A stretch of DNA of 64,000 nucleotides, taken from the IMG/VR virus record IMGVR_UViG_3300024239_000013, positions 221,142-285,141 of that record. One strand, given 5' to 3'. The notes below the pieces were generated by a model. That model was not told the DNA's origin, made no database searches, and saw only the letters and a list, made by a program, of their open reading frames with translations. Below are positions 41,110-60,373 of this stretch, piece by piece (position 1 is the first letter of the stretch; every line of letters begins with the position of its first letter). This DNA comes from a virus. Position numbers and translations under genes: made by a program.

Positions 41110-42066
41110 TTAATCCTTATTTTTAGAAACTTCCCTTATTTTTTTATCTGATATGAAGAAGCGTAAAAGTTTTTTTAATTTTTTTACATATTTTTCATCT
41201 TTCTTGCTTCTTTCTTGCTTTTCTTTTTCGTCCAAATCATTATATTTCCAATCTTCTCTATTTTCAACTTCTAGGAAGTGGTTATATAATCTTTCTTCAT
41301 CTTCACTATTTTCTATACCTAAAGATTTTTTAAGAAGATAGTTTAAATAATCGTTTTTATTTATATCCTGGATATCTGATTCTATTTCCTCCTCTTCAAA
41401 ACCATCTATATTAAAATTCAAGATTGTTTTACCTCTTTCGCTATTTATTGAAACTGAAGGATAAACGTCAGATTTTTTTCTAAATATTTCAAAATTACCT
41501 ATGAATTGATCTGGAGATTTTTTTCTTATGTCCACCTGCATATCATTCATAAGAGATATTTCATATTTCCCATCTTCGCATTTTTTCAAATCTTTAACTT
41601 CGCACGGAACTCCGAGTATTTCCATTATAAAATAAACATCATCCTTAACTGTGTCCAATTGTCTAGTTTTATATGTCTCGTTATCTATTTTAGAATTAAT
41701 GTAATCTTCTATAAAATCTTCTAGTATTTCTCTATTGGATCTTTTATTTAGCCATCTTTGATTAGGATCAATTTTTATAGAATATTGATTTTCCTGGATT
41801 TTATTAATCTTGATAGAATCTTTGGGCAGATTTATTTTTTTGTCCATTTTACCAAATCTATTACAGAAAGAAATTGTAACGTTATTATCATCTTGTGAAG
41901 TAATCAATAACTTACCAACAGGGGGTATAGATTCATTCCCACTAAAATTTTCGGCGAATATTTCATATCCGTCTTCTATTATATTTTTAATTTCGTCAAT
42001 TTCATAATTAAAAGACTCAGACTCCTTTATCATGAATTCTCTAAAATTTAGTATTCTGTTATTCAT
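41110..42066 (-). CDS. Putative inner-head protein (318 aa) with capsid-targeting-like N-terminus
   Basis: The start MNNRILNFREFMIKESES carries a Phe-x-x-Phe motif followed by a Glu site, like the N-terminal capsid-targeting sequence of T4 internal proteins (consensus close to MKTYxEFIxE). In T4 the prohead protease cleaves after that Glu. The rest is very rich in Lys, Glu, Asp and Ile, mostly helical, ending in a highly charged tail (DEKEKQERSKKDEKYVKKLK). No enzyme motif was found. It lies 20 bases after the 149-residue gene in the same operon. Packaging into the head is inferred from the N-terminal motif. Confidence 0.5.
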   Translation of the reverse strand: MNNRILNFREFMIKESESFNYEIDEIKNIIEDGYEIFAENFSGNESIPPVGKLLITSQDDNNVTISFCNRFGKMDKKINLPKDSIKINKIQENQYSIKIDPNQRWLNKRSNREILEDFIEDYINSKIDNETYKTRQLDTVKDDVYFIMEILGVPCEVKDLKKCEDGKYEISLMNDMQVDIRKKSPDQFIGNFEIFRKKSDVYPSVSINSERGKTILNFNIDGFEEEEIESDIQDINKNDYLNYLLKKSLGIENSEDEERLYNHFLEVENREDWKYNDLDEKEKQERSKKDEKYVKKLKKLLRFFISDKKIREVSKNKD

Positions 42067-42086
42067 ATTATCTACAGTCTAGCATA

Positions 42087-42536
42087 TTATTTTTCACCAA
42101 AATAAACAGTAATATCAAAGTTTCTTGGGTCTGTTGACTTATTCATATTTATTTCTAATTTTTCAGGATAAGTTGGGATTGGTGAATCACTTACTTCATT
42201 TTTCAACTGGCTGTAGTCTATGGTTTTACCTGGAATTAAGTCTATATCAAATTCTTTAATTCCATTTGGATAATCATCAACCTCAAATTCAAGCTCTATT
42301 GAATTTAAAGAGAATATGATTCCGTCGATTCCTCCCTTCTTTACAATTAGATCTACTGAATACTCAATAAAAGCTTTACAGTCGTTTATTTCTTCATATT
42401 CTTCTGGTCTATCATATAAATCTATATCAACGTACTTTAACTCCCACCCAAAAGAATAGTCATTGATTCCGCCTCCTATTTTCTTTCCATTTGAATTGTT
42501 TTCTGAAAAAGCAGTATAATCGTATATTTTCGACAT
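42087..42536 (-). CDS. Hypothetical protein (149 aa)
   Basis: Not recognised. The N-terminus (MSKIYDYTAFSENNSNGKKI) loosely resembles the Phe-containing start of the inner-head candidates but has only a weak cleavage site. The rest is acidic and beta-rich (DGIIFSLNSIELEFEVDDYP). It is the first gene of a minus-strand unit, with a GATATATA motif 17 bases upstream, and faces the divergent gene at 42619. Confidence 0.5.
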   Translation of the reverse strand: MSKIYDYTAFSENNSNGKKIGGGINDYSFGWELKYVDIDLYDRPEEYEEINDCKAFIEYSVDLIVKKGGIDGIIFSLNSIELEFEVDDYPNGIKEFDIDLIPGKTIDYSQLKNEVSDSPIPTYPEKLEINMNKSTDPRNFDITVYFGEK

Positions 42537-42552
42537 TTTATTTTTTTTATTC

Positions 42553-42560
42553 TATATATC
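42553..42560 (-). promoter_or_regulatory. Candidate late promoter TTTGGATATATA
   Basis: The minus strand reads TTTGGATATATAG 17 bases upstream of the 149-residue gene, in the divergent region. It is one of the copies with the extended TTGG upstream bases. Confidence 0.6.
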
Positions 42561-42583
42561 CAAAGTAATATTTTTAGATTTAA

Positions 42584-42591
42584 AATATATA
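42584..42591 (+). promoter_or_regulatory. Candidate promoter AATATATA for the plus-strand gene
   Basis: The plus strand reads AATATATAG 27 bases upstream of the 240-residue gene. It differs from the minus-strand motif only at the first base. Confidence 0.35.
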
Positions 42592-42618
42592 GATAGAGCA
42601 TTTTAAAAAAATTGTATC

Positions 42619-43341
42619 ATGAAGCAAATAAGTCCAGTATGGTTTATAAAGAAACCACTAGATCAAGAACACAAGGAATACGTACTTTTAGATTATCTTA
42701 AAAAATTAAGTAGAAAATTAGATAAAGAAAATTGTTATTCCATACTAAGAGAAATCTCCAACAAAATAAAAATAATAAACGAATTTAAAGAATCTAAGAT
42801 TATAAGTGAATTTCTAATAAATAATCTTAAGAAGGAAGATAAAAAAATAGCTAAAGAGTTTATATATGATAATTTAGACGAATCTGATAAATTATTATTG
42901 GAAAAAATATTAGAAAGTTCTCTAGAAATACTATACGAATATTTAGGTATTTGTTTAGATATGATAAAAGAAGAAGAATCTAAAATAAGGATATTTAAAA
43001 TAGACCCACCATCAGGAGTAGAAGATAGACAAAAATCTGGTATAGTAATAGTTAGAAATATGATAACAGATAGAATTATACCATATTATTGGCAGGATTC
43101 GGTTACTCTAAAAACAAAGGAAGGAGATAAAGAAATTTTTATATTAAAAAAAATTCATATAAAAAACCAAACATTCTCCTTAAATTATGAGTACATTTAT
43201 CACGAGATATTGGAAAAATTCAGTAAAAGTTCCAAGAGATTGTCCCCTGATTTACACATAATTGAAATATATGAGAATTTTGAAGAAGACTCTGGTATTT
43301 ATAAATTAGCAAAAGAAAAATTTATAGAAATGTTATCATAA
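42619..43341 (+). CDS. Hypothetical protein (240 aa) on the plus strand
   Basis: Not recognised. The protein is rich in Lys, Glu, Ile and Leu and mainly helical in its first half (for example LREISNKIKIINEFKESKII), with a more beta-like second half (SGIVIVRNMITDRIIPYYWQ). No signal peptide or enzyme motif was seen. It is an isolated plus-strand gene between minus-strand operons, with its own candidate promoter upstream and a strong bidirectional terminator directly after its stop. Confidence 0.6.
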   Translation: MKQISPVWFIKKPLDQEHKEYVLLDYLKKLSRKLDKENCYSILREISNKIKIINEFKESKIISEFLINNLKKEDKKIAKEFIYDNLDESDKLLLEKILESSLEILYEYLGICLDMIKEEESKIRIFKIDPPSGVEDRQKSGIVIVRNMITDRIIPYYWQDSVTLKTKEGDKEIFILKKIHIKNQTFSLNYEYIYHEILEKFSKSSKRLSPDLHIIEIYENFEEDSGIYKLAKEKFIEMLS

Positions 43342-43373
43342 AAAAAGAGAGCTAATTTTTAGCTCTCTTTTTT
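43341..43373. terminator. Bidirectional Rho-independent terminator
   Basis: AAAAAAGAGAGCT pairs with AGCTCTCTTTTTT around an A/T loop between two convergent genes. The A-run and T-run on either side let it work in both directions. Confidence 0.9.
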
Positions 43374-43374
43374 A

Positions 43375-43710
43375 TTAAAAATCATTTAGTTTTTTAATAC
43401 TGAATTGTTCGGATTCACTAGTATCCATATTGAATATTCCACCTGATGCCGAAGCGTCAGCCATACCAGTAGTATCTCCTACATTCATTCTATATCCAGG
43501 TACTTCTATTTTAGACTGCTTACCAAAAACTGAATCAGCATAACCTACATAGTCGTAAGCATGTTGTCTAGTAATTTCAGATAGTCCAGTTTTTTCTGGT
43601 TGATGAGTTTGGTTTTCTTTTGAAAATGGTTTATATTCATTATCGTGGACTTTACCTAAAAATTGTTCATAGTCCAATATTTCTCTTTTTGCAACGTTTT
43701 GTTGGTTCAT
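43375..43710 (-). CDS. Small head-region protein (111 aa)
   Basis: Not recognised. The N-terminus contains EILDYEQFLGKVHDNEYKPF, a possible relative of the capsid-targeting motif, but the Glu site is not convincing. The C-terminal half is Gly/Ser/Met/Asp-rich and probably disordered (GDTTGMADASASGGIFNMDT). It is preceded by a GATAAATA motif 23 bases upstream and followed by a strong terminator, so it may be a single-gene unit within the head cluster. Confidence 0.5.
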   Translation of the reverse strand: MNQQNVAKREILDYEQFLGKVHDNEYKPFSKENQTHQPEKTGLSEITRQHAYDYVGYADSVFGKQSKIEVPGYRMNVGDTTGMADASASGGIFNMDTSESEQFSIKKLNDF

Positions 43711-43731
43711 GATCGATTTATTAATATTTTA

Positions 43732-44352
43732 TTATTTATCACTCTTACCAAAGAGTCCTTCCCAAAAAGATCCAAAAGAATTGGATTTTGTTTTTTCAGG
43801 ATATTCTTTTACTAGCTGTTGCGATAGAGCATCCTTCATTTTTTCTTTACTTTCATCGTCAAGCTTATTGATAACATCTTTACCTACTGGTTCTTCTCCT
43901 AAAACTTTCAGAAAAAACTTAGTTAAATTTTCCTTACCCATTCTTTCCTGTAAACTTTCTCTTATTATGGAAGCTAACCATCCGTTAGGCATTATACCAA
44001 ATGGAGTATAAAGGGAATCGAAACCTTTTCTTTGGATATATTCTTGTACGGCTTGAGCTAAACGAGGAGCTAAAAATTGAGCATTAGCATTTTTACCGGT
44101 TAATAATCCTGGGATTTCTTTAATCTCTATGGCGTCTACAACTTCTTGAATTATAGTAGAGGCTTCACTATTTTCAGAGATCCCTAATTTCTCCAGAAGC
44201 GAAGCTGCAAGTTTTTGTTTAACGGTTTTAACAAAACCTGCTCCTAATAAAGGAAGCATCCTACCAAATATTGAGTTCATATCGGATATAAGATCTTCAT
44301 TAACCTCATTTGAATCGTATGAAAAATCTTCAAAACTTTTTATCTTTGACAT
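43732..44352 (-). CDS. Putative inner-head protein (206 aa) with capsid-targeting-like N-terminus
   Basis: The start MSKIKSFEDFSYDSNEVNED has the Phe-x-x-Phe motif followed by VNE|D at residue 19, resembling the T4-type capsid-targeting sequence and protease site. After it there is a helical region with a short hydrophobic stretch (GRMLPLLGAGFVKTV), an amphipathic middle and a charged C-terminus. No enzyme motif was found. Promoter motif GATATATA lies 21 bases upstream. A head-internal location is inferred. Confidence 0.55.
   Translation of the reverse strand: MSKIKSFEDFSYDSNEVNEDLISDMNSIFGRMLPLLGAGFVKTVKQKLAASLLEKLGISENSEASTIIQEVVDAIEIKEIPGLLTGKNANAQFLAPRLAQAVQEYIQRKGFDSLYTPFGIMPNGWLASIIRESLQERMGKENLTKFFLKVLGEEPVGKDVINKLDDESKEKMKDALSQQLVKEYPEKTKSNSFGSFWEGLFGKSDK
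43733..43740 (-). promoter_or_regulatory. Candidate late promoter GATAAATA
   Basis: The minus strand reads GATAAATA 23 bases upstream of the 111-residue gene, the same spacing as at 35041. It overlaps the stop codon of the preceding gene. Confidence 0.5.
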
Positions 44353-44372
44353 TTTTGGATTTTATTTTAGTG

Positions 44373-44380
44373 TATATATC
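44373..44380 (-). promoter_or_regulatory. Candidate late promoter ATTGGATATATA
   Basis: The minus strand reads ATTGGATATATAC, 21 bases upstream of the 206-residue gene, with the extended ATTGG upstream bases seen also at 51324. Confidence 0.6.
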
Positions 44381-44405
44381 CAATAAAAATAAAAATATTC
44401 GAAGA

Positions 44406-45812
44406 TTAGGCTATAGCTAAAAATAATTCAACAGCCTTTTGTCTATAAGTTAATTTATCCTTTTTTATTTCTGGATTTTTGAGAGCCTCTTTTTTTCTAT
44501 TTATTATTGATTCTGGTAACATAGGACCAAAAGTATCTTTTAATATCTTTTTGTCCTTTCTCCATTCTAGAGGAAGATGCATTGCAAATCTAACAATTTC
44601 TAAATTTAAAAACGGATTTCTTAATTCCAATGTATGAGCCATTGACATCTTATCAAGTCTTGGTAAATGATAGAAAGTAAGTTCTTCAAAAATATCAGAT
44701 TTTTGTGAATCGTATTCATGAATTCTTGAATACCCTCCAAATAACTCATCTGCTCCATCTCCACTTAATACTATTCTATAATCAGTATTATTACGAATTG
44801 ATTCGAATAAATGATATTGGGGTATAACAGATCCCAAATCTATCGGGCTTTCGTTCCATTGTGCATATATAAGACCATTTTTTGCAGGATCCATATCATA
44901 GCTAAGGAAATTTACAGGAGTGTCTAAATGAGCTCTTAAATCGTTTATAAAGGGAGTTTCCCCATTTTCTATACTAAACCAAGTAACCTTTGCATCTAAC
45001 TCTTTTAAAATAGCAGCAATTATAGAAGAATCCAATCCTCCGGAAACTAAAAGGGATATCGGATAATTTCTAGATACCAATCTATTCTTAACACTTTCAA
45101 ACATCTTATCCCAAAGCCAATCGACGTATGAGTCATAATCAGCACCTTCCAATTCAGGAATTGGAAGATCCCATAATCTATAATAGTCCTTGTAGGTTTG
45201 TTCAAATCCGGGTGATTGCATATTATGATAATAAATTGTATTAGGAAGAACTCTTTTTATATTTTTATATGCTGTTCTCGTATCCGTATTATATCCCCAT
45301 TTTCTAACTGAGCTTATAAAAATTTCATCTATATCAGAAAAATTAGTATAAAGTCCTTTTATCTCAGAGCAGATTTCTCCCAATTCATTTTTATATAAAG
45401 ATTTCTTTCCAAGAGGATCTGTAAAATATATAACGTCTCCGTTTTTTGAATTGTAGACCACAATAGACCAAAAACCATCCCATTTTACAATGTGAGGAAC
45501 ATACATAGCAACAAAAAATTCTAAATTACCTCCTTTATAATTTTTAAAAAGATCACATAGGTATTCAGTATCAGATTCAAATATATTCGAATCATAATTA
45601 AAAATTTCACCATTAAACATCAGATAAATACCGTCGTTTATTTCTATTGGTTGGTTCCAATTATCACCGTCTAAAGTTTGTATAGGTAATCTATGATGAC
45701 ATAGCGTTATGTCACCAAATGACTCTGTTGATCTTTCTATTCCCCTGTGTTTAATAGAGTCTAATATTCTATCATCAGAATTTCCTCTTGTAGTAAGTAA
45801 TATTCCACACAT
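44406..45812 (-). CDS. asnB: Asparagine synthetase (glutamine-hydrolysing)
   Basis: AsnB makes asparagine from aspartate, ATP and glutamine. The N-terminal Cys2 nucleophile (MCGILLTT) and HRG at residues 22-24 mark a class II glutaminase domain, with FNGEIFNY at residues 66-73. The synthetase domain has the PP-loop SGGLDSS (257-263), the second motif LSGDGADELFGGY (349-361) and RNPFLN (398-403). At 468 residues it is shorter than typical bacterial AsnB. Apparently intact. A virus carrying it could raise Asn supply for its Asn-rich proteins or amidate something else; this is inference. It lies 2 bases from the kinase gene, forming a two-gene metabolic unit between head genes. Confidence 0.88.
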   Translation of the reverse strand: MCGILLTTRGNSDDRILDSIKHRGIERSTESFGDITLCHHRLPIQTLDGDNWNQPIEINDGIYLMFNGEIFNYDSNIFESDTEYLCDLFKNYKGGNLEFFVAMYVPHIVKWDGFWSIVVYNSKNGDVIYFTDPLGKKSLYKNELGEICSEIKGLYTNFSDIDEIFISSVRKWGYNTDTRTAYKNIKRVLPNTIYYHNMQSPGFEQTYKDYYRLWDLPIPELEGADYDSYVDWLWDKMFESVKNRLVSRNYPISLLVSGGLDSSIIAAILKELDAKVTWFSIENGETPFINDLRAHLDTPVNFLSYDMDPAKNGLIYAQWNESPIDLGSVIPQYHLFESIRNNTDYRIVLSGDGADELFGGYSRIHEYDSQKSDIFEELTFYHLPRLDKMSMAHTLELRNPFLNLEIVRFAMHLPLEWRKDKKILKDTFGPMLPESIINRKKEALKNPEIKKDKLTYRQKAVELFLAIA

Positions 45813-45814
45813 AA

Positions 45815-46396: not shown

Positions 46397-46460
46397 GTAT
46401 TTTATATCCAAAAAATACTAAATGTTTTCAAAATAGTTATAAAAATTGACTTAAAATAAA

Positions 46461-46492
46461 AAAAAAAGAGGGATTTAATTCCCTCTTTTTTT
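46461..46492. terminator. Bidirectional Rho-independent terminator
   Basis: AGAGGGA and TCCCTCT form a stem, extended by A-T pairs, with a TTTAAT loop, flanked by an A-run and a T-run. It ends the head gene of 827 residues and insulates the asnB-kinase unit. Confidence 0.9.
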
Positions 46493-46495
46493 ATT

Positions 46496-48994: not shown

Positions 48995-49264
48995 TTAGTA
49001 TATATTAGTATTTCCTGCATCTGGATTTGCTCTAATTTCCGCAGCTAAAGTTTTAAGAAGATTTGATATCTGTAAGTAAACAACTGATTGTTTATTCAGA
49101 GATTCAATTTCAGAATTAACATTTCCTGGTTTTTTAGCTTTTTTAATTGCAGATATCTCAGAGAATTTTTTCGAAAGATCCAATTTCGTTTGTTCCATCT
49201 TAGATATTTCTGCTTCATTCATTTCAGAATATCCACCCATTTTAAATTCATTAAAACTAATCAT
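48995..49264 (-). CDS. Small putative inner-head protein (89 aa)
   Basis: The start MISFNEFKMGGYSEMNEAEI contains the Phe-x-Glu-Phe motif and MNE|A at residue 17, a very good match to the T4 capsid-targeting and cleavage pattern. The rest is a single long helix with Lys/Glu pattern (TKLDLSKKFSEISAIKKAKK). It overlaps the end of the 296-residue gene by 8 bases, implying coupled translation and shared fate. A gp67/gp68 or internal-protein-like role is inferred. Confidence 0.6.
   Translation of the reverse strand: MISFNEFKMGGYSEMNEAEISKMEQTKLDLSKKFSEISAIKKAKKPGNVNSEIESLNKQSVVYLQISNLLKTLAAEIRANPDAGNTNIY
48999..49006 (-). promoter_or_regulatory. Weak candidate promoter AATATATA
   Basis: The minus strand reads AATATATA 20 bases upstream of the 827-residue gene, overlapping the end of the small inner-head gene. 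The first base differs from the main motif. Confidence 0.3.
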
Positions 49265-50147
49265 GATTTCTTGCTACTGTTATTTTAGATCTGAGGTCTC
49301 TTATTTGACCCATATATTTTTCTCTAATTTCCTTTATTCTCTTAGCTGCTGATTCTCTAGTTTCTCCGTTCCCGGTTTTATTTGAAATTTCATTATTAAG
49401 AGCATCCCTTTCCAAATCCATCTGAACGTATAAAGAATCTCTTTCCTTTATAAGAGAGGAAGTTAGTTTTTTGATTTGTTCCTTGGTAAGAGATGAAATT
49501 TCTTTCGTAAACTCTGATATTGACATTGATGTATATCGATCGATAGAGCTATCATTTAAACCAGAAGATTTCTTTTCGTCCTCCTTTGATTTAACTTCTC
49601 TACTAACCAAATCACCATAGTTTTTTTTGAATTCCAGATCTCTTTCCTTTGCTTTAAGAACTGCCTTTTTGTATTTGTCATAAAGATCCTTAGATGTGGA
49701 AGAATCTGCTAATTCTTTAGACTTCTTATACATTTCCTCTGCAACTTCAGCATCGACTTTAGCTTTATTCACCTCCCAGAAATTTTGCAATTTAATGCTA
49801 TCACTAATTACATCTTTAACAACCTTCATTAAATGATCTACTTTTTTAGCGTGAACCTTTTTAGAATTAGCTAAAACAGCATTATTTCTTTGGATATATC
49901 TTTCGGCTTTTTTTGCTTCTGCTGGGTCATTTTTAGATTGGGCTCTTTCCAATTCTAGTTTATCTATTTCAATTAAAACTTCCTCCCATTCATCAACAAA
50001 TTCCAATTCTAGATTTTTATAGTCATTTAGGAGTCCTTGAAGTTTACTCATAGCTCCACCAAAATTAGCACTAAACCAATCTTTAACTTTATCAAAAAAG
50101 TTTGCTTCATTTAGGGTTTCCCATTCTTTAAATTTAAGAGTCTTCAT
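49257..50147 (-). CDS. Coiled-coil putative inner-head protein (296 aa)
   Basis: The start MKTLKFKEWETLNEANFFDK is nearly the T4 internal-protein sequence: M-K-T, an aromatic-x-Glu-Trp/Phe core and LNE|A at residue 14. The remaining residues are dominated by charged coiled coil (for example LEFVDEWEEVLIEIDKLELE and KKSKELADSSTSKDLYDKYK). No enzyme motif was found. It is the middle gene of a group of three overlapping or adjoining coiled-coil genes and lies upstream of the small 89-residue gene with which it overlaps. A core/scaffold or packaged protein is likely. Confidence 0.6.
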   Translation of the reverse strand: MKTLKFKEWETLNEANFFDKVKDWFSANFGGAMSKLQGLLNDYKNLELEFVDEWEEVLIEIDKLELERAQSKNDPAEAKKAERYIQRNNAVLANSKKVHAKKVDHLMKVVKDVISDSIKLQNFWEVNKAKVDAEVAEEMYKKSKELADSSTSKDLYDKYKKAVLKAKERDLEFKKNYGDLVSREVKSKEDEKKSSGLNDSSIDRYTSMSISEFTKEISSLTKEQIKKLTSSLIKERDSLYVQMDLERDALNNEISNKTGNGETRESAAKRIKEIREKYMGQIRDLRSKITVARNHD

Positions 50148-50148: not shown

Positions 50149-51297
50149 TTAATCTATTAATTTTGATTTAGCTTTTTTAATTCTTCCTACGTTAGCTGGA
50201 GAATTCTTATCTTTTTCTATACTAGCAAAAAGATCAGATACCACCTTTTTAGTTCCTGAATTAGCATCATCTCCGTTAATAATCTCCTGATTTATTTTAT
50301 TTGTTAACTTAGTAAAATCAGATTCTTTGGATAAAACCTTAGTTATCTCTGATTCAGTTTTACCTAGACCTCTAAATAGATGTAAGAGATTTTCCTTTGC
50401 ATCTAAAGTAGAGCTCAGTTCAAGAAGATCCATTTTAAAAGTCTCTATGTACTTTAGTGATATTGTTTTAGGGCTCTTAGCCATTTTAGATTCTAAAACA
50501 TTCAATTTTCTCTCAATATCAGATCTTAAATCTGCTATTTCTTTTTCTAATTCATTTTTTCTTTGTATTAGGTCCTTACCCTTTCTACTCGAGATTTTTT
50601 TCTTCTCCTTTTCTAAATCTACAGATAGATCATTTTTAGGGGCTCTGTCCTCTAAATCTCTCTCAGTTTTAGCTTTTATATCATTAGCCTTTTCCTCTGC
50701 ATCTCTCTTTGCATCTTCTATTTTTTCTTTATACTTTCTAATTTCAGTTTGGTCTTTAGATCTTTCTGAAGCTAATTTATATTCTAGTTCTGCTATAGCA
50801 ATTTCATCCTCTGCATATCCTGCAGCTAAATATTGTTTTCTTCTAGAATTATCATCAGTAAGTCTATAAGCAACATCTTTTGATTTTTTAATCTTTAATT
50901 TTTGAGCTTTCACATAAGCTTCAAATTCTTTAATTTTAGAATCTCTTTCTTTCTCTAAAGAATCTATTTTTTCTTTATTTCCGGATCTAGATAAGCTATC
51001 TATTTGAATATCTATTTTTTCTATATTCTTTTCAAACTCGTCTTTTTTTTCTATTAAATCTAATTCTAAATCAAGAATAATTTTTCTAGCCTGATCAATC
51101 ATACTTATTCTTGACATAGATCCAAGGAAAAATTTAGATAAGCTATTCTTTAAATTATTCATAAGATTCCCTTCATTAACCGAATGTATAGGTTCAACTC
51201 TTTCTAGGGAATTAAGCTCATTCAACAATTCAGGACTTACACTTTCCATCAAATCCCCATATTTTTTGAATTCACTAAAAGATGGTATATTTTTCAT
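50149..51297 (-). CDS. Highly charged coiled-coil inner-head / scaffold-like protein (382 aa)
   Basis: The start MKNIPSFSEFKKYGDLMESV has the Phe-x-Glu-Phe motif, and SVNE|G at residue 42 fits the inferred protease site. The rest is an almost continuous Lys/Glu/Asp/Arg-rich coiled coil (for example DIQIDSLSRSGNKEKIDSLE and KEKIEDAKRDAEEKANDIKA), like a scaffolding core protein. Three adjoining genes here may form the prohead core together with the repeat domain of the protease. It begins a unit with GATATATA 27 bases upstream. The gene ends one base before the 296-residue gene. Role inferred. Confidence 0.55.
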   Translation of the reverse strand: MKNIPSFSEFKKYGDLMESVSPELLNELNSLERVEPIHSVNEGNLMNNLKNSLSKFFLGSMSRISMIDQARKIILDLELDLIEKKDEFEKNIEKIDIQIDSLSRSGNKEKIDSLEKERDSKIKEFEAYVKAQKLKIKKSKDVAYRLTDDNSRRKQYLAAGYAEDEIAIAELEYKLASERSKDQTEIRKYKEKIEDAKRDAEEKANDIKAKTERDLEDRAPKNDLSVDLEKEKKKISSRKGKDLIQRKNELEKEIADLRSDIERKLNVLESKMAKSPKTISLKYIETFKMDLLELSSTLDAKENLLHLFRGLGKTESEITKVLSKESDFTKLTNKINQEIINGDDANSGTKKVVSDLFASIEKDKNSPANVGRIKKAKSKLID

Positions 51298-51361: not shown

Positions 51362-53098
51362 CTAATGAATTCCATATTTATAATTACCACAGTCCCATAT
51401 TTTATAATATCCCATAGAATGCATAATATCATCAGCTTTTAAGTTTGGATCAAATCCAAGAGAAATCAATTTAGATTTTGTCCAGTTTAGTCGATTAGAT
51501 TTTCTATCGTCAACAACCCAATAATATCCAGGAGTTGTTTTTCCGATATAAATAAATCCACTTTTATAATAAGAAGTTTCTTTGTGATTGGGGGAGAAAG
51601 AAACATCGCAATAAGTAACTATAGATTTGGTAATATTATCTTTTATATACTTAATAATCCTAGAAACTCCACCAACTACAGTTGTATTAATAAGACTACA
51701 ACTTCTGATTACCTCATATTCATATTTAGATTTTTTACTATCTATTAATTTTCTAGTTTTCGCTAAACTCATCAGAGAAACTAATACATTCTCGTAATAT
51801 AATCCTATTATTATACTTGCTGGACAATATCCCTTGAGATGATTCTTCTGTGTAAAATGCTTATATTCACTTTTAGTGACCTGTTTTATTTCACACTTTC
51901 TGGCAAAAATTTTTCTTGAAATAGCACCAACTGCAGAAGATATCATAGACTTAACTATTTCTTTTTTATACCTCCAATCATCCTCCCATATATGATATAA
52001 ACTAATACCTTTACTTGATAAAAATTCAGTTTTTTCTTGGTGATATTTAGAATTCTTATATATCTCAGAGTGCCAATAAAGTCCATTAAACTCAAAAGCA
52101 ACGTTTATTTTTGGCAAATAGACGTCAACTTCAGAAAATTGTTTATTGTTTTTAAATAAACTTCTATTATTAGATAATACCTCTCCAGGATATATTTCTT
52201 CTATATATTTTAGTAATTCCCTTTCCAAAACAGAAGATTTCATGTCTATTGGGTTACAATATGGACATGGATCTATTCCATTTCTAAGTTTAGCATTTAT
52301 AGTTGTTGAATGGAAACTAAAATCATGATTGCATCTTTCACAATTTAGATCAACCTTAGTTGTCGAATAACTAATCAATCCAATAGAATAAGAATCCAAT
52401 TTACTAGAAAGTGTTTTTTGCTTAGTTATCGATGAAGACTCCGAAACTTTCTTAGCTATTTCAGGATTTTTCATAGTATTCTCGTGTCCATACTTAAGAA
52501 TATTGGTATTTCTTGACGACTCCGAATTAATAAAATCCAAGGTTCCATATTTTTCAATACAGGTTTTAAGTCTTTTTTCAGAAATCTCCTTATTTTTTAA
52601 GGGAGAGTCTACACCATATTTTTCATTAAGGGTTTCCCTTATTTTTTCTTTTACTTCATTGGATTTGAAATTATGATCAACCCCATATTTTGTTAACATA
52701 GTAGCTTCATATTTTTTTCTTTCTTCCGAACCTTTTTTGAAATACGAGTCTCCGTATTTTGACTTTATTGTATTTTTAAAACTATCGACTTTAATTTTTC
52801 TTTTACATTCAGAATTACCACATGTATTAAAGTAACCATCACTGAATCTATAGAATTTTTTAGGGTTTCCGCATATGCACTTTTCTACTAATTCCAAATT
52901 ATTTATTATATGATATAATCTTTGTCCTATAGTAATGTCAAAATATACTTGATTTAGAAAATGTGTTACGTTCTCGATATCTGAAATTAATTCCTTATCG
53001 TTCCTTATTCTAGTGAATATGCCATTTAATGACATATTATTCGAAAGCTTATCGTTGATGTCATTCGTTATTAATATCAGATTATTGCTAAGTTTCAT
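51362..53098 (-). CDS. Homing endonuclease-like protein (Vsr/EDxHD-type nuclease)
   Basis: The 578-residue protein has a C-terminal nuclease of the Vsr-like EDxHD type, seen as EVDVYLPKINVAFEFNGLYW followed by HSE and the later ISLYHIWEDDW. The N-terminal half has a Cys4-type zinc motif (CICGN through CGNSECK), then repeated KYGVD-type units (TKYGVDHNFKSNEVKEKI, NEKYGVDSPLKNKEI) that are usual DNA-binding modules of phage homing endonucleases, and a CxxC ribbon (CERC, CPYC). Free-standing genes of this type sit between essential phage genes and spread by cutting alleles that lack them. It lies directly after the capsid gene's terminator and lacks a clear late promoter. It appears intact. Confidence 0.82.
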   Translation of the reverse strand: MKLSNNLILITNDINDKLSNNMSLNGIFTRIRNDKELISDIENVTHFLNQVYFDITIGQRLYHIINNLELVEKCICGNPKKFYRFSDGYFNTCGNSECKRKIKVDSFKNTIKSKYGDSYFKKGSEERKKYEATMLTKYGVDHNFKSNEVKEKIRETLNEKYGVDSPLKNKEISEKRLKTCIEKYGTLDFINSESSRNTNILKYGHENTMKNPEIAKKVSESSSITKQKTLSSKLDSYSIGLISYSTTKVDLNCERCNHDFSFHSTTINAKLRNGIDPCPYCNPIDMKSSVLERELLKYIEEIYPGEVLSNNRSLFKNNKQFSEVDVYLPKINVAFEFNGLYWHSEIYKNSKYHQEKTEFLSSKGISLYHIWEDDWRYKKEIVKSMISSAVGAISRKIFARKCEIKQVTKSEYKHFTQKNHLKGYCPASIIIGLYYENVLVSLMSLAKTRKLIDSKKSKYEYEVIRSCSLINTTVVGGVSRIIKYIKDNITKSIVTYCDVSFSPNHKETSYYKSGFIYIGKTTPGYYWVVDDRKSNRLNWTKSKLISLGFDPNLKADDIMHSMGYYKIWDCGNYKYGIH

Positions 53099-53135
53099 GT
53101 TTCGTAAAATTGCTTATATTGTTTAATATTATAGC

Positions 53136-53170
53136 AAAAAAAAGCTTTAGTTTTCACTAAAGCTTTTTTT
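53136..53170. terminator. Strong bidirectional terminator after the capsid gene
   Basis: AAGCTTTAGT pairs with ACTAAAGCTT around a TTTC loop, extended by A-run and T-run pairs. It ends the very highly expressed capsid transcript before the homing endonuclease gene. Confidence 0.92.
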
Positions 53171-53188
53171 ATTTATTTAATGTTTAGA

Positions 53189-54901
53189 TTATGCTAGACC
53201 TCCTGCAGGTACATTAACAAAGAATGTTAAGTACATAGTTTCAGGTAACATACCAGCTTCAACTAGAGCGTATCTAGATTTAACTGCTATTTTAGGTGAC
53301 ATAGTACCTTCAGAGATTGTCTGAATTGACTCTGCCATCATATAAGGCATGAATTTAAGACCTGGTTCGTCGTCTCCACCTTTTCTACCAACTAATACTC
53401 TAGTATCTCCGTAGCTCATGTTTTGATCTACATAAACAGTCATACCAGCAAGAGATCCTACCGGATATAATGTACCGTTATTTTGAGTTAGAGTGTTAGA
53501 GAAAGGAGCAAAAGTGAATTGAGAGATGTCTTGAAGTGCACTTGCAACTGCAGCGTTTGTTACGATGAAGTTAGCTGGACCTCTTCTACCTCTGTTAGCT
53601 ACTACGTTAGCAGCTGCAAGAATTCTAGAGAATAATCTTCTTTGTAAAGTTGATAAGTTCTCGTAAGAAGTTGATGCAGGACCTGCTGGAATAGCCATAG
53701 CTACACCTTGATCTGATTTATTAACGTAAGCTGCTGTTGTACCAGTAGATCCGTTAAGTACTAAGTTTAAGTTCAAGTTTTGGTTTTCAACGTTGTTGAA
53801 TTGAACGTGGTTAGACCAACCTAGAGCAAATGCTCTTGAAAGGATGTGCTTGTTAATTGCTTGAGAAACCTCGTTAACTAATGCATTCTCGATCATTGAA
53901 ATAACGTCGATACCGAATTGTTTGTTAAGGTCTTGGATTTGCTCAGTTGTAACTGAAGCAGCAACTTGGAAAGTCTCAGCTTCTACGAACTTAGTGAAAG
54001 TAGAAAGACCCATTGAGTTATAGTAAGTAGATTCAGCTACTCCTCTTAACATTGGGTTATAAGTTTTAGTACCATCAACATAAGGTCCTTGCCAATCAGC
54101 ATCGTTATTGAAACCAGCACCAGAGAATCCTTGGATGTGATCTTCTAAAGCTTTAACTAATTGAGCAACGTATCCGTTAACTGAAGTAGAAGTACCAGTG
54201 TACATACCGCTAGTACCAACTTGTACTGAAGTACCGTTGACGATAGAAGCTATTGTATAGTTTTGAGTAACTCCAGCAACCTCGAAAATTGGGAAACCGT
54301 CAATTCTTGAAAGTCCAACGAAAGTTAAAGTTAAAGTACCACCGTTAACTACAGTGTAAGAAGTTCCTACTGTAAAAGTACCAGCTGTAGCACCAGTAGC
54401 ACCAGCAGCAGATCCTTGATAAACAGGGAATTTAATCATTGATGGAGCTTTTGCTAAAGCATCTGCAGCAGAAGCATCTGAGCCAGTAGCACCAGCTAAT
54501 TTACCACCTGCATATACATAATCTAGATAAGATAAGATACCAGTTGGTCCTGACATAGGAATAACAGGAACGATATCAAACCCGATTGTTTTAGCAGCTA
54601 CTTGAATAGCTAAAGGTAACAATGATGGGAATTTATCTCCTGAACCTTGCCAAGATGCGTTATAGAAACCAGCATTAGCACCAGTTGATAATCCACCTGC
54701 TCCTGGGAATGATGGAGGGGTTACGTTACCCATACCATTTACAACACCTAAAGAGTTATATGCACCCGCAGATTCGTTTAATGAGTGATAGTGACAATAT
54801 TTAGTTAACCACTCTTTTTTGCTTGAGTCAGTGATTCCTGCTTTACTCTCGATGATAGGAGACCAGGTTTCATAGATTTCTTGTTCGTTAATCAATTTCA
54901 T
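53189..54901 (-). CDS. gp23: Major capsid protein, gp23-like
   Basis: The 570-residue protein matches the T4 gp23 type: an N-terminal propeptide with HSLNE|SAGAYNS at residue 43, the prohead protease cleavage pattern, then LPLAIQVAAKTIGFDIVPVI and PMSGPTGILSYLDYVYAGGK, the classic start of the HK97-fold core. The C-terminal part (ISQFTFAPFSNTL, then GSLAGMTVYVDQNMSYGDTR) also agrees. Residues about 130-250 contain an insertion-like Gly/Ala/Thr-rich region with GATG motifs. It is flanked by the protease/scaffold gene upstream (29 bases) and a strong terminator. The ATG has no Shine-Dalgarno sequence. Confidence 0.95.
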   Translation of the reverse strand: MKLINEQEIYETWSPIIESKAGITDSSKKEWLTKYCHYHSLNESAGAYNSLGVVNGMGNVTPPSFPGAGGLSTGANAGFYNASWQGSGDKFPSLLPLAIQVAAKTIGFDIVPVIPMSGPTGILSYLDYVYAGGKLAGATGSDASAADALAKAPSMIKFPVYQGSAAGATGATAGTFTVGTSYTVVNGGTLTLTFVGLSRIDGFPIFEVAGVTQNYTIASIVNGTSVQVGTSGMYTGTSTSVNGYVAQLVKALEDHIQGFSGAGFNNDADWQGPYVDGTKTYNPMLRGVAESTYYNSMGLSTFTKFVEAETFQVAASVTTEQIQDLNKQFGIDVISMIENALVNEVSQAINKHILSRAFALGWSNHVQFNNVENQNLNLNLVLNGSTGTTAAYVNKSDQGVAMAIPAGPASTSYENLSTLQRRLFSRILAAANVVANRGRRGPANFIVTNAAVASALQDISQFTFAPFSNTLTQNNGTLYPVGSLAGMTVYVDQNMSYGDTRVLVGRKGGDDEPGLKFMPYMMAESIQTISEGTMSPKIAVKSRYALVEAGMLPETMYLTFFVNVPAGGLA

Positions 54902-54930
54902 GATTTTATTTACTTTTTTTTAATTTTAAT

Positions 54931-56919
54931 TTACCTTTTTGAGAATTTTTGCTCTAGTGCTGAAGCTATATAATTCATATAATCATTTGAATAAGCTTTT
55001 GGAGCATCGTCTTGAGCTAGATTTTCATTCTCGTTTAGTTTTTGAACACCAACTGGTTTAGTCCCTAGCTGTCTAGTAGACCAGAAGTTTTTGATCTGGT
55101 AAGGTGTATCTAATCTATAGAAGTTACTTTGAGCAATGATAGATTGCTGGTGGCCTTCGTTAAGAGATTCCCAAACCTGAACATATTCTTCAGGCATCTC
55201 GTCGATAAACTTAAGTCCTGTTTTGTTAGTGTTCTCGTTAAGAGTTTCTTCTGCCTTCTGTGTGTCGGCTGGTGCTTCTACAAATCTAGAAGCTTCGTTT
55301 ATATTTGATTCAGTTTTTTGTGTTTTAACTGATTCTATCAAATTGTCAATTTTTGTTGAAAGATTATCATAATCTCCAGCAAATCCAGATTCATTTAAAC
55401 CTGCTTTAGCTGAAAGATCTACGCTTTCTCTTAGTGATTCTTCTTTTTGCATAATTCCGTTATTAACGCTTTCTGCTATATATTCAGTATAAGATATTGA
55501 TCTTTTAACTTTTTCTGCTAAATATTCAGAATAATCCAATCCTCTATTAAGATTTTCAGCTAAATAATCAGAATATTCGATTGATTTGTTTAAGTTTTCT
55601 GCTAAGTACTCAGTATATTCAATTCCATCATTTAGTTTTTCTGCTACGTATTCAGTGTAGGCAATACCTTTATCTAAGTTTTCTGCAATATATTCAGTGT
55701 AAGCAATACCTTTATCTACATTTTCTGCAAGATATTCAGCGTAGGCAATACCTTTATCTACATTTTCTGCAAGATATTCAGAATATTGGATATTCTGATC
55801 AACTTTCTCTGCAAGATACTTAGAATATTCAATGGATTTATCTACATTTTCAGCAACATACTCAGAATAAGAAATGGATTTATCTACATTTTCAGCTAAA
55901 TACTTAGAATAAGAAATATTCTTATCAAGATTTTCAGCTAAATATTTGCTGTAGCTGATACTAGAATCTAAATTCTCTGCAAGATATTCTCCGTACTTGA
56001 TAGCATTATCTAAGTTTTCAGCAAGATATTCAGAATATTTTTCTAATTTTTTTACTCTTTCTTCTAGTGCTGAAGTATTAGAAGATTCATCAGATTCTGT
56101 CAATTTTTCTCTTTGGTCTTTAATTTCTGCTATTGAACTTTTCATAGCATCCATCTCTTTTTTTAAGAAAATCGAATATCGATTAAGTTCTTCTGCAGTA
56201 ACAAGTTCTTTATTCTCCATGAGGATTGTTTTATTTTTGTCTATTTTTGATACGAGTTTGTTAAATTCTTCGTTATTTTCAACTTTATATATCTTTACTG
56301 AGGATTCATTTTCTAGGCCTAATGATTCATTCACACAAATTAAATCAGATAATACACTAGAATTTCTCATTTCGAAAAATTCTTCAAATGTATAACCTGC
56401 ACTTTCATAAACTCTTTCAAGCTGTGCGTCTTGAAATCCAGGATCTGCAACTAGGTCGTAAGTAAATATCTTTTTAATTTGAACTTTCTTATCGTTACCT
56501 ACCGCTCCTGCTGCTCTAGATGATATAGATAAAGGAACTCCAGCATCTACTAATTTCTTAGCAATCTGACCCGCTGGTGTATCTAGAAGTCTTACTTTAA
56601 TTCTAATTTCTCTAGTATTCTTATCGTAAGTAAGATCCGTAATTATGTGGGATATGTTTTTTAAAGAAACGTCAAACTTTTCTGGGTGGTCTAATTCTCC
56701 AACCAGTCTTTTTTGAGCTATCTTATCTTTAAGATAATTTAAATGTGGAAGATATTCAGCTTCTTCATATATCCTATTGTTGTTGTTCTCTTTTCCGAAA
56801 ACAGCAGCAATACCCTCAAGTACATATTCTTCAGAATCTGTTTTTTTAGATTCCAAAACCGTTTCCTGTCTTTCTAGAATAAAAACTAAATCTTCGTTCA
56901 ATTTTTGAGTTGTCGGCAT
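54931..56919 (-). CDS. gp21: Prohead protease fused to repeat scaffold (gp21-like plus core)
   Basis: Residues 30-180 match the gp21/S80 prohead protease: YVLEGIAAVFGKENNNNRIY, catalytic-type His78 in GELDHPEKFDV, Ser133/Ser134 in SISSRAAG and an acidic YDLVADPGFQDA. Residues 295-490 are fourteen tandem 14-residue units of the form Y-S-E-Y-L-A-E-N-V-D-K-S-I-x, two heptads each, likely a long coiled coil. Seven or so LNE/VNE/INE sites occur, including KLNE at residue 8 and several after the repeats, so the protein probably cuts itself up. T4 has separate protease (gp21) and scaffold core (gp22) genes; here they appear fused. It precedes the capsid gene by 29 bases and has a GATATATA motif 26 bases upstream. 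Confidence 0.88.
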   Translation of the reverse strand: MPTTQKLNEDLVFILERQETVLESKKTDSEEYVLEGIAAVFGKENNNNRIYEEAEYLPHLNYLKDKIAQKRLVGELDHPEKFDVSLKNISHIITDLTYDKNTREIRIKVRLLDTPAGQIAKKLVDAGVPLSISSRAAGAVGNDKKVQIKKIFTYDLVADPGFQDAQLERVYESAGYTFEEFFEMRNSSVLSDLICVNESLGLENESSVKIYKVENNEEFNKLVSKIDKNKTILMENKELVTAEELNRYSIFLKKEMDAMKSSIAEIKDQREKLTESDESSNTSALEERVKKLEKYSEYLAENLDNAIKYGEYLAENLDSSISYSKYLAENLDKNISYSKYLAENVDKSISYSEYVAENVDKSIEYSKYLAEKVDQNIQYSEYLAENVDKGIAYAEYLAENVDKGIAYTEYIAENLDKGIAYTEYVAEKLNDGIEYTEYLAENLNKSIEYSDYLAENLNRGLDYSEYLAEKVKRSISYTEYIAESVNNGIMQKEESLRESVDLSAKAGLNESGFAGDYDNLSTKIDNLIESVKTQKTESNINEASRFVEAPADTQKAEETLNENTNKTGLKFIDEMPEEYVQVWESLNEGHQQSIIAQSNFYRLDTPYQIKNFWSTRQLGTKPVGVQKLNENENLAQDDAPKAYSNDYMNYIASALEQKFSKR
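55450..56037. repeat. 42-bp tandem repeats coding for fourteen 14-residue units
   Basis: The coding sequence between 56037 and 55450 consists of fourteen 42-bp units. Units share the Y-x-x-Y-[LVI]-A-E core but differ by many bases, so the array is old and maintained at protein level. Confidence 0.9.
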
Positions 56920-56944
56920 TTTTCTATATTCTTTTTATCTTTCT

Positions 56945-56952
56945 TATATATC
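56945..56952 (-). promoter_or_regulatory. Candidate late promoter ATTGATATATA
   Basis: The minus strand reads ATTGATATATAAG 26 bases upstream of the protease/scaffold gene. This unit presumably also serves the capsid gene, since no separate motif was seen in front of it. Confidence 0.6.
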
Positions 56953-56987
56953 AATAAAGATTTTAATATTTTTAATCTTTTTTTATA

Positions 56988-59570
56988 TTATTCATATTTT
57001 ATTCTATCTTCAACTTCAGTCGTAAACTTTTTAGCTATTTGGAAAGCTTCACCGTCGGTCACTCTATATTTTCTAACTCTATCCCCAGGGGATGCAAATT
57101 TATTTTTAAGTTTAACTTCTACTATATCTCCTCTGTTATCCTGTAGTGCTTTTGCGAAAGATATTGCCTTCCATCCTTCTACGCCTAGAACTTCTTTTTC
57201 CTTATCTGATAAGAACTTATCTATTAAGTTTATTCCACCAGTTACTGAATTGTCTCTTATTATCGTAGAACTTCTTCTATCCTTAATTTTAACATCATTT
57301 GGATCAACCTTGATATAATAATCATCAGAAACCTTACCTTCTACTTTATCACCAGAAACTTCTGGTTTTTTTTCATCGGTTTTTGGATTTACTACTGTTA
57401 CGATATCAGATTCTCTTCCGTCTTTTTTATTATCAAGTTTGGCTTTTTTAAATTGATATACACCTCTCTTAGGATTGTTTATATCCTCATTTATGGTATT
57501 TGTCTGAACCGAAATCGATTCACCTCTTTTGGCTCCATAGTCACTTGGATCTATAGTAAAGTTAGTGAATTTTCCAGTTTTATATTTTCTTAATTCTGGA
57601 TCTGCGTATTCTCTATCAGTAACCCAATATATTGCGACTTTTGCTGGTGTTGATAAATCGGCTGAAGATAGACTAACAATATCTCCTGATTTTTTATCCT
57701 CATTTATACCATAAATTCTATCGCTAAACGAAGAGAAGCTTGTAATGACATCATTTTCATTAACAAGGTCCATGTATACTAAGCCACCGTCTTCTGATTC
57801 ATTCTTTTTAGAACCATTTCCTGAATCTTCTTTAACTTCCTTAGGTATAAATATTTTATCGATGTCATCTTTAGAAGTTGATCTTAATTCGTCATTATTC
57901 ATAAGTCTACCAACAACATTTATTATATCACCTTCATCGTTCTGATAATAAAATTCATAATTTTCTGGTGCACTATCATCTGAAATTATAAGTTGATCTG
58001 AAGAACTGTCCAAAGCTGTTTTAAAAACATCCCAATCACACATACCCTTAAATTTAAAGATAGTTGCTAATTTAGATATTCCGTCAACATAAGATATTTT
58101 AAAATCAAGGTCTTCGTTATCGAAAACTCTAGCTATAGTATTTAGAGCACCTTCTTGGTCATTAACAATGTCGTTATTGTCCAATGCAATTAAAACAAGA
58201 TCATGTTCTGCAAGTTGTTTCTGTGCTTCTTTAGAATTTATCTGAGTTAATATAAGTATGGAGTAATTGTTCTTATCCGCTATTTTAATAAATTCTGCTG
58301 TTGTTCTCGTTTCATTGTTAAAAAGGAAACTAGTAACAGTGCCCCATCCTCCTCCTGCTGGCTGAGACCAACAAACTGTAATAGGTACTCCGATTGGGAT
58401 TTTTTTAGAATCCATTTCCCTCTGTGCAAATGATTTAACCTCATTATATTTTGGAGCTTGCTTATCACTAAACCAATTCCAAGCTGATCCTATTACGTCA
58501 GTTAAAATAAGTATTTCACCAACAAAAGGAATAAGTTTAGCTCCTCCTTGAGCTGCTCCTCTTGTAAATCCTTTAGAAAATGCTTTTAAAGCACCCTTTG
58601 CTCCAACCTTACCTAATGTATAAGCTGATTTTGCTCCCTTTGCTCCTCTAACTATCGAAGATCCAATAGTTCTGGTGTTTTTAAGTAAAGCAACATCTTT
58701 AGCTCCTCCCCATAGACTTTTTATAGCAGAACCACCATAATTTTTTATCTTATCCATTACACCAGGGGGAACCTGAGTTGCATTTTTTGGATTTATTCTA
58801 AATCCCGATATACTCTTAAGTAAAAGTGCTCCAGATAATGCTCCACCCGCAGCTTTTAATGCTCCAAAAAGAGTGATACTAACCCCACCCATTACTGCTA
58901 ATATTGATGCATCTTGTATAATTTTTTGAGTAAGACCTTCAGCAGTTTCATTTTCTGGAATTTGACCACCGGGATACATCTCATTAACATCAAGAAGCAT
59001 TATCTTTGATGCAGATTGAGATTTAGTGAAAGATTTCATTTTTACCGCCTTTAAGGTTTCCTGTATATCTTCTCCAGTATCTGGATCATTTCCACAGATA
59101 AAAATTGCCTTTTCCTTTCCATCTAATATTTCACCAGGACTTAAAGTTTCGTCTATTTTACCTTCACTCTTTAATTTATTGTAAGCAAAATGGAATTTTA
59201 TGGCTTCCCTAAATTTAGGATCATCATCAGCAGTATTAGTATCTTCATTCAATTTAGAAAAATTAGAAAAAGAAATTACTCCGTTATCTAAATCGTTCTC
59301 ATCTAACGAAACGTTTATATCGTCTAAATTAAAATTATATTTTTCCTTGATGTATTCTGCAACATTAGAATATTTACTCATATCTTCAGAATCAGCGACC
59401 CAAGATCTAGGATTTTTATCAAGCCATTTTTGAAAATCCTCAGATTTTGCCCACCATTGAAAATCTTCAAAAGATGCACTTTCTGCTCCTTTCATATCAA
59501 GGGGAACTGTTAAGAATGGGAAATCGTCTCCGTTTTTATATTCTGTTTTTTTAGGTAGTAGTATAATCAT
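56988..59570 (-). CDS. Polyprotein-like inner-head protein (860 aa) with glycine-rich hydrophobic region
   Basis: No family was recognised. Three Glu sites of the prohead-protease type occur inside: KLNE|D at residue 109 after VISFSNFS, GINE|D at 624 after ITSFSSFSDRIY, and TINE|D at 695. The first two follow Phe-rich segments resembling the capsid-targeting sequence, so the protein may be cut into several pieces. Residues about 221-365 are Gly/Ala-rich and hydrophobic (LAVMGGVSITLFGALKAAGG and GGAKLIPFVGEILILTDVIG), with basic patches, and might insert in membranes. Later regions are charged and beta-rich. It may be ejected with DNA; this is inference. It is the gene upstream of the protease. 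Confidence 0.55.
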   Translation of the reverse strand: MIILLPKKTEYKNGDDFPFLTVPLDMKGAESASFEDFQWWAKSEDFQKWLDKNPRSWVADSEDMSKYSNVAEYIKEKYNFNLDDINVSLDENDLDNGVISFSNFSKLNEDTNTADDDPKFREAIKFHFAYNKLKSEGKIDETLSPGEILDGKEKAIFICGNDPDTGEDIQETLKAVKMKSFTKSQSASKIMLLDVNEMYPGGQIPENETAEGLTQKIIQDASILAVMGGVSITLFGALKAAGGALSGALLLKSISGFRINPKNATQVPPGVMDKIKNYGGSAIKSLWGGAKDVALLKNTRTIGSSIVRGAKGAKSAYTLGKVGAKGALKAFSKGFTRGAAQGGAKLIPFVGEILILTDVIGSAWNWFSDKQAPKYNEVKSFAQREMDSKKIPIGVPITVCWSQPAGGGWGTVTSFLFNNETRTTAEFIKIADKNNYSILILTQINSKEAQKQLAEHDLVLIALDNNDIVNDQEGALNTIARVFDNEDLDFKISYVDGISKLATIFKFKGMCDWDVFKTALDSSSDQLIISDDSAPENYEFYYQNDEGDIINVVGRLMNNDELRSTSKDDIDKIFIPKEVKEDSGNGSKKNESEDGGLVYMDLVNENDVITSFSSFSDRIYGINEDKKSGDIVSLSSADLSTPAKVAIYWVTDREYADPELRKYKTGKFTNFTIDPSDYGAKRGESISVQTNTINEDINNPKRGVYQFKKAKLDNKKDGRESDIVTVVNPKTDEKKPEVSGDKVEGKVSDDYYIKVDPNDVKIKDRRSSTIIRDNSVTGGINLIDKFLSDKEKEVLGVEGWKAISFAKALQDNRGDIVEVKLKNKFASPGDRVRKYRVTDGEAFQIAKKFTTEVEDRIKYE

Positions 59571-59572
59571 TT

Positions 59573-60373
59573 CTATTTTTCTGTGTAAATTTTATCGTAT
59601 GATTTTGAAATAATATTTATCAATTTTTCTATATATCCTTCATTTCTAAGCTTTTTAAATGCTAGGTTTCCTATAGACATTTCTCCTCCTTTTTCTAACC
59701 CCTCTCTTCTCATTTTAAATATTTTTTTCTTCATCGTAAGACATCTCTTATAAAGTTGTCTAGCATTTGAAGGTATCATCGAGTCAACAAGAAGTCTTGA
59801 ATGTAATTGTTCTATGTCAGAAACTATGGAATTATATTTCTTTTCAACATCTCTCTCGTCTATTGAAGGTGGATTATATGATGGAGATTTTATCCATTCA
59901 TTTTTTAAAAGAGAAAAGAGAGCAGATGCTGTATGTGGTTCTGATTCGTCCTGTACGTAAAGTTCAACGTCATAACCTCTAATAACGATATCATGTCTAA
60001 GATTCCACATGAATCTAATCCCACCTATGGCTTTTTTTAGTATTTGAGGATTGTCATCATCAATACCTTTAAGGTTAACTATAATATGAACGTCAAGATC
60101 AGAAAAATCTGTGTAGTTGTAATTTGATAAAGATCCAGTTAATTGTATATCAACAATATCCTTTTGTTTTAATACATCTTCATAATTAGAAAAAAATTCA
60201 TTGGCTATCCTAAGTAGCTTTCTTCTAACTCTCTGGTCAAATACCCATTTATCCTTCTTCTTAGTCCAAAAAACTGGAGCCAACTCATCATGGTAGAAAG
60301 AATTTACCTTTCCTTCATTTAATGAATTGCTTCTTTTATTTAAAAATCTATTAAACTCTAATAATCTATCCAC
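59573..60373 (-). CDS. Nucleotidyltransferase-fold protein with capsid-targeting-like N-terminus
   Basis: A Pol beta-type nucleotidyltransferase core is visible: QLTGSLSNYNYTDFSDLDVH with GS at residues 80-81 and the D-x-D pair at 92 and 94, and a third carboxylate in YDVELYV (Glu137). The N-terminus DRLLEFNRFLNKRSNSLNEG matches the Phe-x-x-Phe plus LNE|G pattern of the inner-head group, so the enzyme may be packaged and delivered. The start is GTG at 60373, the only start that keeps this motif. The substrate is unknown; AMP or other nucleotide transfer to RNA or protein is possible. A promoter-terminator hairpin lies directly upstream. It ends 2 bases before the polyprotein-like gene. Confidence 0.72.
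   Translation of the reverse strand: MDRLLEFNRFLNKRSNSLNEGKVNSFYHDELAPVFWTKKKDKWVFDQRVRRKLLRIANEFFSNYEDVLKQKDIVDIQLTGSLSNYNYTDFSDLDVHIIVNLKGIDDDNPQILKKAIGGIRFMWNLRHDIVIRGYDVELYVQDESEPHTASALFSLLKNEWIKSPSYNPPSIDERDVEKKYNSIVSDIEQLHSRLLVDSMIPSNARQLYKRCLTMKKKIFKMRREGLEKGGEMSIGNLAFKKLRNEGYIEKLINIISKSYDKIYTEK
59630..59637 (-). promoter_or_regulatory. Possible internal promoter GGATATATA
   Basis: The minus strand reads AAGGATATATAG inside the end of the nucleotidyltransferase gene, 60 bases upstream of the polyprotein-like gene. A GATAAATA lies 16 bases further downstream (59614-59621). Either could serve the next gene; both may be chance within coding sequence. Confidence 0.3.

Follow-up and report, generated by a model that had tools for sequence, protein, structure and literature searches.

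A putative T4-type capsid-targeting propeptide at the start of an estimated 40 genes in an uncultured giant phage

In phage T4, a short N-terminal sequence directs internal proteins into the prohead and is removed by the prohead protease, and the question raised by the locus studied here is whether a similar sequence shared by several of its proteins acts in the same way. The window analysed is a stretch of 64,000 nucleotides (positions 221142-285141 of the 319,334-base virus record IMGVR_UViG_3300024239_000013), and coordinates refer to it unless a contig is given. The phage is related to Lak megaphages, PTm1, and PAU, and its major capsid protein matches those of Lak megaphages, LR756500, Tenacibaculum PTm1/pT24, Sphingomonas PAU, Chryseobacterium MA9V, and Flavobacterium MaF61. 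A sequence-only reading had described at least six proteins encoded between 41110 and 60373 with a Phe-rich start followed by a Glu site, and all six N-termini that it gave were found. They are listed below (↓, cleavage position, predicted except for T4 proteins) with scores from a nine-column tag profile, whose seeds came solely from outside the window and which was scored leave-one-out.

42022..42066, (−) strand: N-terminal tag MNNRILNFREFMIKE↓S of p318 (gene 41110-42066; profile score 10.1, leave-one-out)
44296..44352, (−) strand: N-terminal tag MSKIKSFEDFSYDSNEVNE↓D of p206 (gene 43732-44352; profile score 12.9)
49214..49264, (−) strand: N-terminal tag MISFNEFKMGGYSEMNE↓A of p89 (gene 48995-49264)
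50106..50147, (−) strand: N-terminal tag MKTLKFKEWETLNE↓A of p296 (gene 49257-50147)
51172..51297, (−) strand: N-terminal tag MKNIPSFSEF...SVNE↓G of p382 (gene 50149-51297; profile score 11.2)
60314..60373, (−) strand: N-terminal tag MDRLLEFNRFLNKRSNSLNE↓G of a nucleotidyltransferase-like protein (NTase; gene 59573-60373, GTG start)

The six genes have a common layout: an aromatic-x-x-aromatic pair and then a Glu site, which comes directly or behind a spacer. Up to the Glu, the tag measures 14-20 residues in five of them; p382 has Glu sites from residue 18 to 42 (LME18↓S, LNE27↓L, and VNE42↓G, residues numbered by eye), and at some processing sites V or M stands in place of L/I. The NTase matches phrog_36119 (E = 9.6e-40) and, weakly, Pfam NTP_transf_2; no function emerged from Pfam or PHROG for p206, p296, p382, p89, p318, or the neighboring 860-residue protein p860. 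In the predicted model of p206, residues 1-22 are of low confidence or disordered, and helices start from residue 19.

A set of 78 related loci was collected around the protease gene, and conservation was assessed by counting the distinct orthologue N-termini that keep an aromatic pair plus a Glu site. This pair-plus-Glu rule was met in 39/39 N-termini for p296 (3.3 expected), 44/44 for the NTase (6.7 expected), 21/21 for p89 (0.9 expected), 26/37 for p382 (3.6 expected), and 23/34 for p206 (2.9 expected); no relative of p318 was found in the 78 loci. F6 and W9 of p296 are nearly invariant, as is E20 of the NTase behind a spacer of variable length, and F10 and E19 of p206 are among only ten invariant columns in 20 orthologues with identities down to 25%. 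Between divergent orthologues the spacers vary, with both aromatics and the Glu retained.

Two further genes were considered as tagged proteins and rejected. The first is located between p318 and p206:

43375..43710, (−) strand: p111, with a conserved aromatic pair (ILDYEQFL) and no Glu site (profile score 11.2)

The Glu rule was met in 0/19 of its orthologues; its relatives begin with ILD[FY]xxFLxKVHD, thus with an aromatic pair and no Glu, and p111 may possibly carry an uncleaved tag. For the second, p159 (62131-62610), the rule was likewise unsupported in orthologues, and p159 and its relatives share another conserved start, MK[HY]IKxINE[FY], which has no aromatic pair.

The previously claimed resemblance of these N-termini to those of T4 internal proteins was checked on the T4 genome (NC_000866), where ipII and ipIII begin with MKTYQEFIAE↓A and ipI with MKTFKEFTSTTTPVSTITE↓A. 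In the tag of T4 IPIII, targeting depends mainly on residues 4 and 7 (Y, F) and processing on residues 8 and 10 (I, E); gp21 cuts the bond after L/I-x-E, and, as is relevant to p111, a T4 tag with Asp at the cut site still targets although it is no longer processed (PMC9026906). The tag studied here corresponds residue for residue to the T4 capsid-targeting sequence (CTS) at these four experimentally mapped positions. By analogy, the aromatic pair (F/Y-x-x-F/W) would bind the prohead core or scaffold and draw the protein into the prohead, and a fused S77 protease would cut behind the Glu in [L/I/V]-x-E, a site that in this phage mostly reads [L/I]-N-E↓[S/A/G/D]. Within the maturing head, the cut would set the mature protein free, and the payload would then probably be delivered with the DNA.

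The capsid protein and the protease-scaffold fusion are encoded within the same gene cluster:

54773..54901, (−) strand: propeptide of the major capsid protein (gene 53189-54901), cut predicted at SLNE43↓S
54931..56919, (−) strand: prohead protease (N-terminal part) fused to scaffold (Pfam Peptidase_S77, 1.3e-7; phrog_207 head maturation protease, 8.2e-39)
55471..56037, (−) strand: scaffold repeats, 14 tandem 14-residue units YxxY[LVI]AE (residues 295-483)

The PTm1 homologue of the fused protease is annotated as "prohead core scaffolding protein and protease". The N-terminus of the protease was also tried as a tag and was not supported by the Glu rule in orthologues. The capsid protein contains a T4-gp23-like W.P..E segment (residues 13-18), and its propeptide site had been claimed to follow the same N-E rule as the tags. 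It does fit, with N42, E43, and S44 invariant in 52/52 relatives, yet this invariance is weak evidence because the capsid protein is well conserved overall. As a separate observation, a homing-endonuclease-like gene (51362-53098) is found immediately or almost immediately downstream of that for the capsid protein; such a gene occupies the same place in several relatives (L095 16751-18550, L096 17165-18562, and L100 16817-18274) and is annotated so in PTm1.

The pattern also occurs within a polypeptide chain. The N-terminus of p860 itself does not meet the rule, and two tags were found in its interior:

59244..59276, (−) strand: first internal tag of p860, ISFSNFSKLNE↓D (residues 99-109; gene 56988-59570)
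57699..57749, (−) strand: second internal tag of p860, VITSFSSFSDRIYGINE↓D (residues 608-624)

The first was present in 46/46 distinct orthologue linkers (3.1 expected from shuffling), with F101 and E109 nearly invariant, and the second in 48/49 (5.4 expected from shuffling), with F612 invariant and F615 nearly so. Among orthologues the linkers differ in length and sequence while the tag pattern stays. In the predicted model of p860, each tag forms a short helix in a low-confidence or disordered linker between folded parts. Foldseek comparison of the p860 and p206 models with the PDB yielded nothing at E ≤ 0.001; confidence in both models is low (mean pLDDT 60 and 64, respectively). Cleavage being inferred, p860 is probably cut into three pieces; alternatively, tagged proteins that used to be separate may have been fused in it.

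The number of carriers was estimated over the 441 ORFs of the whole record, with shuffled N-termini of the same composition and internal stretches as null models. The profile gave 21 N-termini scoring ≥10, compared with 1.0 (internal) or 1.45 (shuffled) expected; several of the 21 are seeds, each scored without itself. A strict motif, [FYW]xx[FYW][LIVM]xE near the gene start, was found in 22 genes genome-wide (1.4 expected from shuffled N-termini, 2.7 from internal stretches), or in 11 if an 11-copy array of leucine-rich repeat (LRR)-like genes is excluded. A looser rule was met by 61 genes, or by 50 without the array, where 19-24 were expected. From this excess we estimate that about 40 genes, i.e. 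about 9% of the ORFs, are tagged; single assignments remain uncertain because of the high background of the loose rule (19-24 among the 50 non-LRR genes). Unsupervised motif discovery on all N-termini was of no further use: its likelihood beat the controls, but the motif was diffuse and dominated by general N-terminal composition. N-termini in this AT-rich genome do contain more K, I, L, and F in general, and Lys/Phe/Ile-rich starts could in principle mimic the motif by chance. Given that 11 strict matches remain when the LRR array is set aside, where shuffling at constant composition yields 1.4, and given the invariance among orthologues, such a compositional origin is scarcely tenable; it is the conservation in orthologues that disfavors it.

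The tag was not found everywhere. None of the 25 ORFs below 41 kb, the tail part of the window, qualified, and twelve identified proteins lack it, namely ribonucleotide reductase, Hsp70, terminase, portal, gyrase A, gyrase B, two helicases, NAMPT-like protein, DNA polymerase B, ligase, and thymidylate synthase. Two side observations concern genes of these types. Two adjacent portal-like genes with similar N-termini are present (G000:C1 289775-291442, Portal_T4, E = 8.6e-64, and 291447-293036), and the NAMPT-like gene (G000:C1 133247-134803) and a Nudix-like gene (window 39733-40314) possibly serve NAD metabolism.

Taken together, we consider it very probable that the shared N-terminus is a T4-type capsid-targeting propeptide used genome-wide, by about 40 genes, and freed by the S77 protease; binding, packaging, cleavage, and delivery are inferred. 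What is observed is a sequence pattern that is statistically in excess, is conserved in relatives, and agrees with the T4 positions. The location of tagged proteins in the virion and their cleavage are inferred; there are no virion proteomics for this phage. The capsid-targeting interpretation proposed by the sequence-only reading is thus supported, as far as sequences can support it, by the T4 match, the S77 protease, the absence from the window's tail genes and from the twelve replication, nucleotide, chaperone, and packaging proteins named above, the orthologue conservation, and the tags of PAU described below. Its expectation of a set larger than that of T4 and including an enzyme was borne out at the level of sequence, with an estimated 40 or so tagged genes and several enzymes among them. 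The description as a group of head-region genes needs widening, since these six make up only the smaller part of all tagged genes and most carriers lie outside the head cluster. The genome-wide profile search retrieved four head-region genes (43732, 50149, 43375, and 41110) among its 21 matches. An equal frequency of the motif in non-head genes, proposed as refutation, is a poor test because T4 internal-protein genes are also distant from the capsid genes.

Among the distant tagged genes, several encode enzymes recognized by Pfam: a CHAP hydrolase (1.6e-8), two SLT transglycosylases (1.1e-7 and 1.2e-10, the second with a spaced tag), a RimK-like ATP-grasp ligase (4.9e-34), and an adenylate kinase (3.4e-40), the domain of which starts at residue 27, after the tag. 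The rule was met in 25/25 N-termini of the RimK-like protein, with the strict motif in 24/25 (0.03 expected), and 9/13 N-termini of CHAP proteins within the clade keep the rule, likewise 9/13 for the strict motif (0.01 expected). Some CHAP relatives in other contigs bear a variant form, e.g. MKSFREILNE; at greater distance, CHAP proteins have no tag. The LRR-like paralogues comprise 11 tandem genes (G000:C1 38629-48374, outside the window), all bearing NYK[TA]F[IV][NS]E at the start. Scans of viral contigs gave no LRR relative confirmed by tblastn, probably because of low-complexity filtering; the genome search did find similar arrays in the relatives G005 (10 matches) and G007 (19 matches), which bear tag variants, e.g. 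MKNLKTYRQLFE↓S. In a giant Vibrio phage whose LRRs are similar, MKFKQFLAE↓S and related starts occur. Independently of the LRR genes, a small paralogue family with the start ME[KR]EF[VIL]PY..AL.LKELGFDE was noticed at G000:C1 108578-119563.

These distant carriers bear on two other explanations. The tag might be capsid-directed only in head-cluster proteins, the distant matches being inherited leaders or chance matches without a packaging role, as could be argued from the high background of the loose rule and from the few tagged proteins that T4 itself packages. This we regard as unlikely, given that the cleanest tags lie outside the cluster, that the RimK-like and CHAP counts far exceed expectation, and that the LRR arrays of relatives bear tag variants. 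Alternatively, the N-terminus might be a docking or sorting signal for a target other than the prohead (a phage compartment, a membrane site, or a chaperone), with the Glu left uncut. The location of most carriers outside the head cluster would fit such a role, as would carriers plausible in the cytosol, such as the adenylate kinase, whose gene adjoins that of ribonucleotide reductase; adenylate kinase is an odd head cargo and counts against packaging. We judge this explanation distinctly improbable, in view of the matched T4 targeting and processing residues, the Glu site retained despite variable spacing, the position of tagged genes next to those of capsid protein and protease, and the PAU tag on a scaffold and on labelled internal capsid proteins.

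A broader version of the capsid-targeting interpretation would see in the tag a general cargo address (for about 40 proteins, including enzymes and the LRR family) that works inside a chain and imitates the 14-fold scaffold repeat; tagged proteins would then co-assemble with the scaffold and be freed by the same cuts. We hold it to be doubtful, though possible. The resemblance between repeat and tag is merely suggestive: scored with the tag profile among 82,000 internal positions, the repeats come out at ranks of about 59-400, which is the chance level for one protein, and scaffold mimicry is therefore kept only as speculation.

If capsid targeting by the tag holds true, its presence on about 40 genes would mean a large and diverse load of proteins in the head. 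Sequence alone would then suffice to read which proteins an uncultured giant phage packages, and enzymes probably brought into the cell at infection would become predictable. A targeting signal that in T4 is known from just a few proteins would turn into a genome-wide cargo manifest testable in cultured relatives such as PAU, and tags would be on offer for loading proteins into very large heads.

A text search of the literature collection used revealed no described expanded CTS set in such phages. By comparison with known systems, the tag meets the sequence criteria of a T4-type CTS: a short N-terminal propeptide (10-20 residues) with aromatics at i/i+3 and an [L/I]-x-E↓ cut site in a phage that encodes an S77 protease. 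As in T4, the carriers are scattered away from the capsid genes and fast-changing bodies follow a constant tag, and the variable spacer between aromatics and Glu is shared with IPI. T4 packages few tagged proteins (PMC9026906); unlike T4 with its handful, this phage has about 40 carriers, prefers Asn before the Glu, and includes enzymes, a tandem LRR family, and a protein with internal tags. The giant phages phiKZ and SPN3US resemble it in having many processed internal head proteins, some with long propeptides. The propeptides of SPN3US mostly comprise 100 or more residues (PMC5694885), a criterion not met by the short common tag found here; only the first predicted piece of p860 (109 residues) is comparable. 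In phage P1, the N-terminal 30 residues of DarB suffice to put a reporter into the head (PMC9024508), but the Dar proteins have no common consensus and the head is not of the T4 type, whereas here a consensus is found genome-wide.

Among the relatives, no expanded tag set was found in the 70 kb of PTm1 examined, and MA9V-1 has a few tags (MKNFFSFINEA, MKTFTCFINEA, and MKTFFNFVNES). In PAU, 21 genes carry a tag of its own, MKT[L/I]xxLYE↓ (1.2 expected), among them the annotated scaffold and, of five genes labelled "internal capsid protein" by the depositors, four (p = 9e-5); the remaining one, gp70, and two internal vertex proteins lack it, and the depositors may not have assigned their labels independently of the tag. 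The N-terminus of the PAU capsid protein has been determined by sequencing (PMC5646251) and falls within one residue of ALME64. PAU thus resembles the phage studied here in combining an S77-type protease with its own genome-wide tag, and differs from it in the form of this tag (leucine-Tyr/Phe-Glu versus F..F[IL]NE) and in encoding protease and scaffold by separate genes.
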